Assembly: GCA_020831585.1 (NCBI GenBank)
Contig: JAFIGE010000019.1
Location: 1-50,925, forward strand
Length of the DNA stretch: 50,925 nucleotides
Origin: Opitutales bacterium
Lineage (GTDB): Bacteria > Verrucomicrobiota > Verrucomicrobiia > Opitutales > Oceanipulchritudinaceae
Reading direction: 5' to 3'
This document shows, in pieces, positions 16,997 to 40,900 of this stretch (the stretch's first letter is position 1; each line of letters opens with the position of its first letter). The notes beneath the pieces are model-generated. The model saw nothing but the letters and a program-made list of their open reading frames with translations, was not told the origin of the DNA and did not search any database. Made by a program: the position numbers and the translations under genes.

Positions 16997-17026
16997 TGCG
17001 GTTGGGATGGTGTGGTATCCGCTTTG

Positions 17027-18028
17027 ATGAAGAATTTGATACCAGCGAAGAGTCGGCGACTGCCGCGGGCGGGGGTGAAAAAGGGCGTTCAGGCGGTGCA
17101 CCATGTGGTGAGCCGGGTCTGCGGGAGGGAGTTTCTTCTCACGGATGTGGAGAAGGAGGCGTTTCGGGGGCTGCTGGACCGGGTGGCGGGCTTTTGCGGC
17201 GTGGAGGTGATCACGTATGCCCTCCTCAATAACCACTTCCATCTGCTCATTGAGGTACCGGGAGCGCCGGGGGAGCTGAGCGATGAGGCGCTCCTGGAGC
17301 GGGCGCGGCGGCTCTATGGGAAGGAGCGCAAGCACCAGCCGCTCTCGATGGCGCGGATCGAGGCCGCCCTGCGCGCGGGCGGTGAGGTAAGGGAGGCCAT
17401 GCGGGGGTTGTTGATGGGGCGGATGGCGTCGCTGCCGATGTTTATGAAGATCCTTAAGCAGCGGTATTCGATCTTGTTCAACCGCAAGTATGACCGCGTG
17501 GGGACGCTCTGGGAGGGGCGCTTCCGGAGTGTGCTGGTGGAGAACACGCGGGTGGCGGTGCGGGCGGTGGCGGCGTATATCGATTTGAACCCGGTGCGGG
17601 CGGGCATCGTGGACGACCCGAAGGACTATCGGTTCAGTGGCTATGGGGAAGCAGTGGGATCGGGGAAATGGCGGGATTATGCCCTCTGGGGGCGGATCCG
17701 GGAGAATCGGGAAGACTCGGTGGATACGGTGGCGGCGCGCTACCGGGAGTATCTGTATGTGAACGCGGCGGACCCGCGAAAGGGGCGCACACTGAAGCCG
17801 GAGGCGGTGGCGGCCGTGAAGGAGCAGGGTGGGCGCTTGGGCATGGCGGCTTTGCTGCGGTGTCGCCTGCGCTACATGACGCAGGGCGCGATCATCGGAT
17901 CAAAATCTTTTGTGGAGGAATGGACGCGCGAGCGGCGGGGTAAAGCAACCACACACCGCGAAAAGGCTCCGGCGGTCGCAACCGGATTAGCCGAGGACGG
18001 CCTCTTCACCGCAAGCGCTCGCCTGTGA
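17027..18028 (+). CDS. REP-associated tyrosine transposase (RAYT)
   Basis: A 333-residue Y1/HUH transposase of the TnpA_REP group. It begins VQAVHHVVSRVCG, has the metal-binding histidine motif NNHFHLLIEVP, and carries the helix with the likely catalytic tyrosine in QRYSILFNRKYDRVGTLWEG. RFRSVLVE and YIDLNPVRAGIV follow. All the usual blocks are present, so the enzyme may be active. It ends GLAEDGLFTASARL instead of the KGGD(W/F)GGL tail of its two relatives in this window, so its C-terminus has diverged. The frame also opens at GTG 17012; the ATG at 17027 matches the start of the paralog. A weak hairpin (CCTTG/CAAGG, 18061-18073) lies downstream; no paired REP is evident at its borders. Confidence 0.9.
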   Translation: MKNLIPAKSRRLPRAGVKKGVQAVHHVVSRVCGREFLLTDVEKEAFRGLLDRVAGFCGVEVITYALLNNHFHLLIEVPGAPGELSDEALLERARRLYGKERKHQPLSMARIEAALRAGGEVREAMRGLLMGRMASLPMFMKILKQRYSILFNRKYDRVGTLWEGRFRSVLVENTRVAVRAVAAYIDLNPVRAGIVDDPKDYRFSGYGEAVGSGKWRDYALWGRIRENREDSVDTVAARYREYLYVNAADPRKGRTLKPEAVAAVKEQGGRLGMAALLRCRLRYMTQGAIIGSKSFVEEWTRERRGKATTHREKAPAVATGLAEDGLFTASARL

Positions 18029-34664: not shown

Positions 34665-35744
34665 CTATTCCAAGGGCTCCTTCAGGTCCCGCAGCGAGCA
34701 GAGCCCGCCAAAGTCTCCGCCCTTCATCGGCCGCGCACCCGTTTGTCGCCCACCAAACGCCCCCTGCACCCCTGCGAACCAATCCTCCACAAAGGCCCGG
34801 CTCCCGATCAGGGCGCCCTCTGTCATATACCTTATCCGGCAGCGCAAAAGTTGCCCCCGCGTCAAACCACCCCCTGCCGCATCCACCTTCCAAAAAGCCG
34901 CCTTCGGCAACACCCGCCCCTTCTCCGAAGCACTCCCGTCCGTCGCCTGCTCAAACATCAGCAACCGATACAAACGTCCCGCCGCTTCCACACACGCGTC
35001 GGTGTCCGCTCGATCCACGCCCTTCCCCAGCAACTCCGCTCCAAACCCCATCCCCGCCAACCTCTTCAACAGCGGATACTCCCCCAGCTTCCCCTTCCCC
35101 ACCGCCTCCCCATAGCCGCAGAACCGGTAATCCTTCGCATCCTCCACAATCCCCGCACGCACCGCGTTCAGATCGATATACGCCCCCACCAGCGCCAAAG
35201 CCTCCCGCGAGTTCTCCACCAACACGCTCCGAAACGGCCCCTCCCACAGCGTCCCCTTGCGCTCATTCAACCGGTTATACCCGATCGAAAACCGCTGCTT
35301 CAGCACCTTCACAAACATCGGCAAGCTCCCCATCCGCCGCAGCAGCAAGTCCCGCATATAGACCCGCGTCGCCCCGCCCTCCGCCAGCGCACCCTTCACC
35401 ATCGACAATGTCAGCGGCTGACCCGGACGCACCTTGCCCCCATACAGAAACCCCGCCCTGCGGATCAACTCCGCATCGTCCAGTTCCCCCACCGCCCCCG
35501 GCACTTCCACCAGCAAGTGGAAGTGGTTGTCCAGGATACAGAAAGTCAGCAGCTCCACCCCGCAAAACGCCGCCACCCGGCCAATCAAGTCGCGCATCCG
35601 CTCCTTCTCCACCGCCCCCAGCAAAAACTCCTGCCCACACGTCCGGCTCACCACATGATAAACCGCCGCCCTCCCCGGCCTCGCCAATACCCGCGCCCGC
35701 CGCCGCCCCTTCTTCGGCAAAAGCCCCTTCGCAAATCCAATCAT
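34665..35744 (-). CDS. REP-associated tyrosine transposase (RAYT)
   Basis: A 359-residue Y1/HUH transposase. AAVYHVVSRTCGQEF is the N-terminal block, DNHFHLLVEVP is the HUH motif, and QRFSIGYNRLNERKGTLWEG lies where the catalytic tyrosine helix should be. YIDLNAVRAGIVEDAKDYRFCGYGEA and LRCRIRYMTEGALIGSRAFVEDW complete the family pattern, and the tail KGGDFGGL resembles the partial gene at the left edge. The ATG at 35744 has GGAAG 8 bp upstream; further in-frame starts exist at 35759 and 35780. It is clearly diverged from the 17.0 kb paralog, so this is not a recent duplication. It converges on mutS with a 2-bp gap. Confidence 0.9.
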   Translation of the reverse strand: MIGFAKGLLPKKGRRRARVLARPGRAAVYHVVSRTCGQEFLLGAVEKERMRDLIGRVAAFCGVELLTFCILDNHFHLLVEVPGAVGELDDAELIRRAGFLYGGKVRPGQPLTLSMVKGALAEGGATRVYMRDLLLRRMGSLPMFVKVLKQRFSIGYNRLNERKGTLWEGPFRSVLVENSREALALVGAYIDLNAVRAGIVEDAKDYRFCGYGEAVGKGKLGEYPLLKRLAGMGFGAELLGKGVDRADTDACVEAAGRLYRLLMFEQATDGSASEKGRVLPKAAFWKVDAAGGGLTRGQLLRCRIRYMTEGALIGSRAFVEDWFAGVQGAFGGRQTGARPMKGGDFGGLCSLRDLKEPLE

Positions 35745-35765
35745 AACCGTATCTTCCATCCCAAA

Positions 35766-35794
35766 ATCACAAACGCACATGTGAGCACTGTCAA
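35766..35794 (-). promoter_or_regulatory. Promoter of the 34.7 kb RAYT gene
   Basis: On the minus strand: TTGACA (35794-35789), a 17-bp spacer and TGTGAT (35771-35766), followed by TTGGGATGG (35764-35756). The -35 box is perfect and the spacing ideal. The same box order is found before the 17.0 kb RAYT gene. Confidence 0.55.
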
Positions 35795-37687: not shown

Positions 37688-40600
37688 CTATCTCTCCTCC
37701 GCCCGCAAGCGCAAAAAGGCGTTGCCCGCCGGGTGGCTGGGTCGGACGGTGATGTGGTGGAGGTAGCCATCGATCTCGCAGTCGACTTCCTCGAGATGAG
37801 TTTCTCCAGAATGCCATGTTTCCAGATCGATGGACACTTCGGGGATGAGGGCGACATCGTCCACACGGCTGTCCCAGGTGTAGGTAAGGGATAAGCCGCC
37901 AGAGTCAGAGACCGCGACGGGCAGGAGGTGGGCGGAGGGTGCGAGCGGATCGGGCCAGCCCATGGCGTATTTGAGCCCGTTGGCGATGCCGTCGCGCGCC
38001 GGGGTGGCGGCAAACCCGGCAATGGCCTCGTCATCCGCATGATGGCCAAAGGCGTTGGCCCGCCAAGCGGCAAAACCCTCAAGCGGGGGCTGCGGCCCCA
38101 CGAAGTCCTTTGCGTAGAGGTGGAGTTGATCGAGGCGCGCCCATCGCTCGTTGAGGGGCCATTGGGCGCGAATGCCGATACCGCGGATGTCCGCGAGGTC
38201 CTCCGGGCTCAGAGTGGTGGATGCGCCGGTGGAGAGGGTGGAAACATCATAGAAATTCCATGCGGTGATCGACGGGATGGACCAACGCTGCCGGTGCCAG
38301 GAAGTGCGGGAGGCAATGTGGGCTTCTGCGGAGGTGCGCACCCATTGACCACTGGCGAGCTTGAGCAGAAGGGAAAAACGAATGGTGCCCTCGGTCTGGA
38401 TGTCCACCTCCACCGCCGCCGAGGGGGTGGACAGGTCGGCGCGGATTTCATCGGTGAAAAAGATGTTTTGGAAATTGATGCGGGTGCGCCCGGTCGTCGC
38501 CATTTCGCCGATGGGATTGGCCGCGTTGCGGGGAGAGCCCTCTGTCGCACGCAGGGCCCAGCCGCGGTCCTGATTCACCATCTGCCAGTTGGCGATGGCG
38601 TTGACTGAGGGGAGTTGACCGTTCACACGGGGAGCGAAGTCCTCGACATACACGGCGACGCCCGATTCGAAGGTTACCGCGGTGACTTCGTTGGATGGCG
38701 CGCTGCTGATACCGTTGGCTGCGGCGACCACGCGGATGGTGTAGCTGCTCTGGGGAGCGAGGCCCTGAAGGTCATAGCCCGAAACCGATCCTCCCACCGT
38801 GGCAACGGGGGTGAAGTCCGGTTCGCCGGGACCGCGTTTTTCGATGATGAAGCTGGTCGCTCCGGAGTCTGCCGGGAGCCAGTTGAGCCGGATCGCCCGA
38901 TCGGAGAGGGTGCGCGCGCTCAAGCCGAGCACGGGCAGGGGGGCGGCGTGATCCAGATCGAGCGATTCCGCGTCACCGCCCCGCAGGAGGACCCCATTCA
39001 CACGGTCGAGGGCGACGGTTTTGTCGCCCAGGCGCACAATCGTTCCGCCGTTTCCATGATTGAGCACTTCGAGCGGAGGTGTGGTCTCCGGCTCGACGCT
39101 CATGACGACAAAGAAGTCCTCGGTGTAACCGGTTTTGTCGATCGTCAGGCGTTCGCCGGGCACATGATTGAGGATCGCCCCGGCCGGCGACAAAACCCAA
39201 CCCTTGACCGTGCCGCCATTGGGGCTAACGAGCGTGAAGGTGGGAAAGCCCTGGTCCTCGCCAATCGAGCTGACAATGCCAAAATCGGCTGCATGGCTGC
39301 CTACATTGGCGTTCCAGGTGTACTGACTTTGTGAATACGAAGCAACGCGATCGAACATCGCGATGACGGCGTTGTTATCTTCGGGATCGCCAAAATCTGT
39401 GAGCAAATGGCGCTGGTAGAGAGCCGCTCCCATATTGGCGTATTGGGTGTGGCCGTCGACGACGACGTAGGCCCCGCTTTCGAAGGTTTCAAGGTGCTGT
39501 CGGCGGCCGGGATCGGGATCGTTGCCCCGCTGGCCGTTGATGAGCATGCGTGTGTAGTGTCGCGGTTCGCGGCTGGTGCGCGGTCCGCTGAAAAACATTG
39601 TGCCGTAGGCGATGAGGCCGGTCTGCCCGGCTTCCGATTGCGCCCAGGCATTTGGATGGTGGCGCAGGTCGGCATGAATGGATACGGATATGTCCTGCGT
39701 GTCCCGCCAGCGCGCCCGCAGGTAATGACGGCCCTGCTCGCCGGTGACGACGAAGGGAAGCTGGCCCGTGGGATCGGCGGGCGTCACATCGTCGGGATAG
39801 AAGAGCAGGGCCCACATGGTTCCCTGGCGGGAGTGATCGAAGCGCAGGTCGGGACGGTCCGCGGGTTCGGCAAGCCGACCAAGGTGCCGGTCATACCACC
39901 AGAGGAAGTGAGGCCGGTCGGCGGGCGGCACGCTTTCGAGGATGAGGCTGGCCCAGCCTTCGTCGTTGGTATTGGGCCCACCCACGCCGGAAGCCTGCCA
40001 CATTCTGCGGTCGGCGAGGCTCGTTGACCCGGGGATCAGGGCAAACGACCCGGAATACATGGCCTTTTTGTGCCATTCGCGGGGCGTGTTGCGGACGAAG
40101 TCCCAGAGCAGGTTGAAACCCGCGTCGCGCGAGGCGTAGATCGCGGGCAGGAGAAAGATGCCACCGTAGCCCGCATAACCCACCCCTTCCTAGGTGCCGC
40201 CAATGACATCATGGCCGTTCAACAGGTGGGTGCGGAGGTCGTTAAGGAGGGTGTTGACGCGCGCGGAGCGGCTCGCCTGTTCGCCGATGCCGAGAATCAT
40301 CATGAGTTCGCCGCCCCGGCAAACCGCCACCCAGTTGGAACCGCGCAAATTTTGGGTGATGTTCGGGTGGGAGTAGCTGAGCCACATGTTCAGGGCAACG
40401 TGCACGCGGTTGCGGATATAATCGCGTTGTTCCGCCGTCCACGCCTCGTAAGCCCAGTTGTAGGCGAGCCCGAACCCCAACCCCACGGTGGCGCGGGAGA
40501 GACCGGCGGAGTCGGCGGGGGCACCGCTCTCGGGCAGACGGCCATCCGGATCGATGTCGTTGTGCACATCATAAAGGGCCTCGAAGGCCCACTCGGCGTA

Positions 40601-40900
40601 GACGGGATCGCCTGTCACGCGGTAAACGAAAGCGGCGGCCTGGGCATAGTAGGAGCGTGCGTAATTCCAGTTTGTCGCGGTGCGGTTGAAGAGATCCAGA
40701 TCCCGCGAATCCACCCGCGCCCGCAGTTGGGCAAAGGCTTGGGCGTAGTGGGAGTCGGGATTGTCCAAACCCGCTTGAATGCGGGCGAGTCGGTCCGGGG
40801 TCAGCAGAATCGGCGCGGGCGCTTGGGCGACAGCGGAAAGAGCGAAGACCAGAAAGCCGAAGAGCGTAAAAATGAGGGCCTTGGGAAGTGTCACAGGCAT
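37688..40900 (-). pseudogene. Heparinase II/III- or alginate-lyase-type secreted enzyme, interrupted by an in-frame TAG
   Basis: Two pieces in the same frame make one ~1070-residue secreted enzyme. The upstream piece (40190-40900) has a signal peptide (ALIFTLFGFLVFALSAVAQ) and an alpha/alpha-toroid lyase start (ILLTPDRLARIQAGL). It ends NGHDVIGGT at TAG (40190-40192). The downstream piece (37688-40183) continues EGVGYAGYGGIFLLPAIYA without a shift. Its middle has the beta-sandwich second lyase domain (GRHYLRARWRDTQDISVSI, YGTMFFSG), a fibronectin III-like domain (SARTLSDRAIRLNWLPADSG), a carbohydrate-module-like region, and a C-terminal module shared with the 41.9 kb gene. A tyrosine codon (TAC/TAT) changed to TAG by one base is the simplest explanation. 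Polyanionic polysaccharide degradation is inferred from the family; the substrate is unknown. Confidence 0.8.

Follow-up and report, generated by a model that had tools for sequence, protein, structure and literature searches.

The window analysed here is a stretch of 50,925 nucleotides from a soda-lake-type Opitutales bacterium, and it carries on its minus strand a gene for a secreted sugar-polymer-cutting enzyme (37688-40900) of 1070 codons plus a stop, with a single in-frame interruption. Its ATG at 40898-40900 is followed by 236 codons, a premature TAG at codon 237 (40190-40192), 833 further sense codons and the natural terminal stop, also a TAG, at residue 1071 (37688-37690). The upstream fragment of 236 aa (40193-40900, minus strand) comprises a probable signal peptide, MPVTLPKALIFTLFGFLVFALSAVAQ (40823-40900, minus strand; judged from the sequence alone, without a predictor), and the first part of an alpha/alpha toroid, and ends short of the putative catalytic tyrosine, Tyr242. 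The downstream fragment of 833 aa (37691-40189, minus strand), which has no signal peptide, holds the rest of the catalytic region, a fibronectin type III (fn3) domain (38681-38935, minus strand; Pfam PF00041, E 1.4e-8) and a C-terminal module.

A preliminary description of this DNA had placed the TAG in an unshifted frame with coding sequence on either side, and both points are borne out; it gave no strand, and the gene proves to lie on the minus one. The TAG is the sole interruption of the lyase frame, which reads DVIGGT*EGVGYAGYGG on the minus strand with no change of frame. Under a model trained on this genome, the 50-codon flanks of the TAG have coding scores of 15.3 upstream and 16.2 downstream, whereas the best alternative frame reaches only 9.1 and 3.5, respectively. 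Four homologues can be aligned across the site without a break and have no stop there; hence, the lyase frame is not made of two ORFs that merely happen to adjoin. The gene thus presents the picture expected of a nonsense pseudogene, namely an in-frame premature stop that lies in a conserved coding frame and is absent from the homologues.

The catalytic part of the protein has no match in Pfam above the curated cut-off and none in NCBIfam. A profile of 15 members matches the PL35 chondroitinase 9O3Q (E 1.1e-11) as well as the GAGases 8KHW and 8KHV, with E-values ranging from 1e-11 to 4e-9 over the toroid. Foldseek searches with a predicted model of the protein (mean pLDDT 77.8) recovered PL15 alginate lyase, PL35, PL21 and related folds. 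The best match is the PL15 exo-alginate lyase Atu3025 (3A0O; E 4.6e-20, TM-score 0.63), which, however, is just ~15% identical to the protein, and the PL35 glycosaminoglycan (GAG) lyases, i.e. GAGase II (8KHV), GAGase VII (8KHW) and the chondroitinase 9O3Q, are matched at E 2e-19 to 1e-18. By these PL35 matches the model displays the (alpha/alpha) toroid and antiparallel beta-sheet of the PL35 fold, and the predicted structure as a whole supports a toroid polysaccharide lyase fold of the PL15, PL35 and PL21 type. PL35 is a candidate family for the lyase, with residue equivalents assigned by profile mapping. In PL35, Asn192 acts as the neutraliser and Tyr246 as the general acid (PMC12088678); their probable counterparts here are Asn189 (40334-40336, minus strand) and Tyr242 (40175-40177, minus strand), both of which are invariant in the family. 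In contrast, no convincing counterparts of the general-base histidine and the Mn ligands (His/Asp) could be recognised at the positions expected from PL35; an invariant tryptophan, Trp419, aligns with PL35 His401 in a part of the alignment that has weak statistical support. The protein further differs from the PL35 enzymes in its extra fn3 and C-terminal modules and in a catalytic part that reaches no curated Pfam cut-off. A haloalkaliphilic Opitutales isolate has been described with many lyases, PL35 being among the common families in its relatives (PMC13274419).

Besides the genome of the window itself, close homologues were found in four genomes (G002, G009, G013 and G004) of a collection with 17 genomes of the window's family. 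Codon 237 is CAG in the first three of these and CAA in G004, i.e. glutamine throughout, and more distant lyase paralogues have CAG in nearly all cases and a histidine in one. Accordingly, close and intermediate homologues have only sense codons at this position, nearly all of them for glutamine, and none has a stop. The codon lies in a [TG]QEGxxY motif, in which glutamine occurs in at least 90% of the 15 family members, and the Glu-Gly after it and the Tyr never vary; Gln237 adjoins the tyrosine for which a catalytic role is suggested by the PL35 lyases. An alignment-based scan of contigs recovered four relatives, the Opitutales MAGs Super_Day6_Bin.11, CSSed165cm_301R1 and CSSed162cmA_196 and the Verrucomicrobia MAG S8C1768; the same scan with one protein as the query returned no relatives, and a scan of viral contigs returned none either. 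The preliminary description had derived the stop from a tyrosine codon by one base change. The comparison with relatives at this codon upholds the idea that one base changed in a gene of secreted lyase type, and it corrects the ancestral residue: tyrosine is rejected, as all four close homologues have glutamine. The sequences are most simply explained, and best fitted, by a one-step CAG to TAG transition.

The gene also appears to have been lost only recently, as had been proposed from the sequence. The protein retains all 44 residues that are invariant across the other 14 aligned members, and comparison with the G002 gene gives dN/dS values of 0.18 for the stretch ahead of the stop, 0.16 for that behind it and 0.17 for the C-terminal part; with synonymous sites near saturation, these values are long-term averages that show only selection until recently. 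Taken together, the retained invariant residues and the low dN/dS on both sides make the break look recent. Since the nearest relatives in the collection, all from other genera, are only ~62-71% identical, the change can be dated no closer than "since the split from sister genera".

We consider it probable that the locus is an ordinary recent nonsense pseudogene with a CAG to TAG change at Gln237. The ancestral gene would have encoded a secreted multidomain lyase-type enzyme until its Gln237 codon became TAG through a recent C to T transition. Protein synthesis would now stop after 236 residues, with loss of the putative catalytic Tyr242, the whole beta-sandwich, the fn3 domain and the C-terminal modules. 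As the product is cut before Tyr242 and these later modules, it should be inactive, and we infer that the enzyme activity has been lost. Such a loss would be borne by redundancy, given that about eight apparently intact paralogues remain in the genome. One nonsense codon, conserved flanks and intact homologues elsewhere are also typical of recent bacterial single-stop pseudogenes (PMC11017572, PMC7918605), from which the present case does not differ in kind, except that several members of one secreted-enzyme family are hit in the same genome. Any reconstruction of the polysaccharide diet of the organism should accordingly leave this lyase out of the active enzymes, however conserved it looks.

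The main rival to this reading is a consensus error, in which the TAG would be an assembly artefact or a minority allele from collapsed strains and most or all cells would carry an intact gene. The assembly is fragmented (262 contigs), the remainder of the lyase gene appears fully conserved, and assembly problems are known to inflate the counts of internal stops (PMC11017572). Against this, a census of 1.69 Mb of the genome, in which most stops proved to be genuine gene termini followed shortly by another start, left only about five credible mid-gene interruptions (classed by eye), which indicates that the consensus is generally good. These are the TAG of the lyase gene in the window, a TAG in C72, a TGA in C255, a TAG in C220 and a TAA in C51. 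Three of the five or so fall in the lyase family, a concentration that random error would not favour, even if the count is post hoc. In the C72 lyase paralogue (L120 5522, minus strand), a PKD repeat contains a single TAG; the G002 counterpart, which is 87% identical, has tryptophan at this position. Likewise, the C255 paralogue (L143 11153, minus strand) has a single TGA in a PKD repeat, at a position where glycine is frequent in related repeats. The in-frame TAG on C220 (L136 8326, plus strand) interrupts the gene of a large, Ig-like secreted protein, whose 45%-identical paralogue on C227 has tyrosine at this point. On C51 (L149 5317, minus strand), an in-frame TAA divides a frame that by eye looks like a sodium/solute symporter, leaving 275 and 399 codons on the two sides. 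As the lyase-family contigs were picked deliberately and the stops classed by eye, the enrichment of this family among interrupted genes is suggestive only. On balance, we regard an error or strain mixture as unlikely, though as the alternative to be taken most seriously.

Considerably less probable is the possibility, also raised earlier, that a suppressor or near-cognate tRNA allows readthrough of the TAG, with full-length enzyme made at a reduced level. Internal stops with conserved flanks occur widely in bacteria (PMC7918605), the flanks on both sides here bear signatures of purifying selection, and low dN/dS with near-saturated dS is equally expected of a gene still functional through readthrough. 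However, the search for an amber suppressor found no positive evidence: ARAGORN analysis of all 41 tRNA loci recovered both glutamine tRNAs and none with a CTA anticodon, in a set that lacks a few of the expected tRNAs from the assembly. Moreover, TAG is an ordinary terminator in this genome, ending 177 of the 1232 coding-like ORFs (~14%) in 1.69 Mb and the lyase gene itself, and a stop at codon 237 is kept in no homologue. The residues beneath the interrupting TAGs also vary, being glutamine in the present gene, tryptophan in C72 and probably tyrosine in C220, such that a single decoding rule would not explain them. Amber reassignment as a general code is rejected on the same grounds, namely the lack of a CTA anticodon among the 41 tRNAs, the usual use of TAG as a terminator and the differing ancestral residues. 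A more elaborate proposal, that stops in several large secreted lyases reflect no decay but act as an on/off switch, or a means of low-level readthrough, for enzymes that are expensive and exported, and are kept polymorphic in the population, strikes us as a long shot. Finally, an 831-aa GTG ORF is listed directly after the stop, and yet a second separate protein from GTG 40181-40183 or a later start is scarcely credible, because the split falls inside the toroid domain, the downstream piece has no signal peptide and the close homologues are single continuous proteins across the site, which rules out relatives with two separate proteins among them.

The lyase gene in the window is ~69-70% identical to that on contig C165 of G002 and also close to those in G013 (C212) and G009 (C289). 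A second close copy in the genome, on C160, shares 84% identity with the G002 gene across the portion that remains. When the C-terminal sequences are grouped by eye, the lyase gene in the window falls with G004 (C64), whereas the C160 copy joins G002 and G009; the two are therefore probably sister copies. Where the C160 copy starts, at a contig end, lie ~50 bases of a repeat (L107 7366-7420). The other half of this gene copy could not be located in the assembly, and the copy was likely hit by an insertion or rearrangement. Apparent breaks are seen in relatives as well: a lyase paralogue in G013 has a TAA in the catalytic region, and the G004 homologue has two apparent frameshifts, which may be errors as the coverage of its contig is about sixfold. 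A TAG on contig C6 of G004 was discarded as an interruption, for it lies upstream of the start Met. With several members of the lyase family broken and others intact, this one genome would offer a small example of how genes turn over in Verrucomicrobiota that degrade polymers.

The end of the repeat at the C160 copy, CCTAAAAAGAGCAGTTGAGGGCGTAAGCGGTCGCAGCCAACGGACTGTAG, occurs at seven places, mostly contig ends (C160, C139, C174, C185, C198, C203 and C233), and its copy in C185 extends in the direction of a frame that by eye resembles REP-associated tyrosine transposases. The Y1 transposase family PF01797 has 134 matches genome-wide (E <= 0.001), many of them in open frames of ~340 aa, an abundance that is a large expansion of IS200-like or REP-associated transposases. 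Two such frames lie in the window, at 34665-35780 (minus strand) and 17012-18028 (plus strand).
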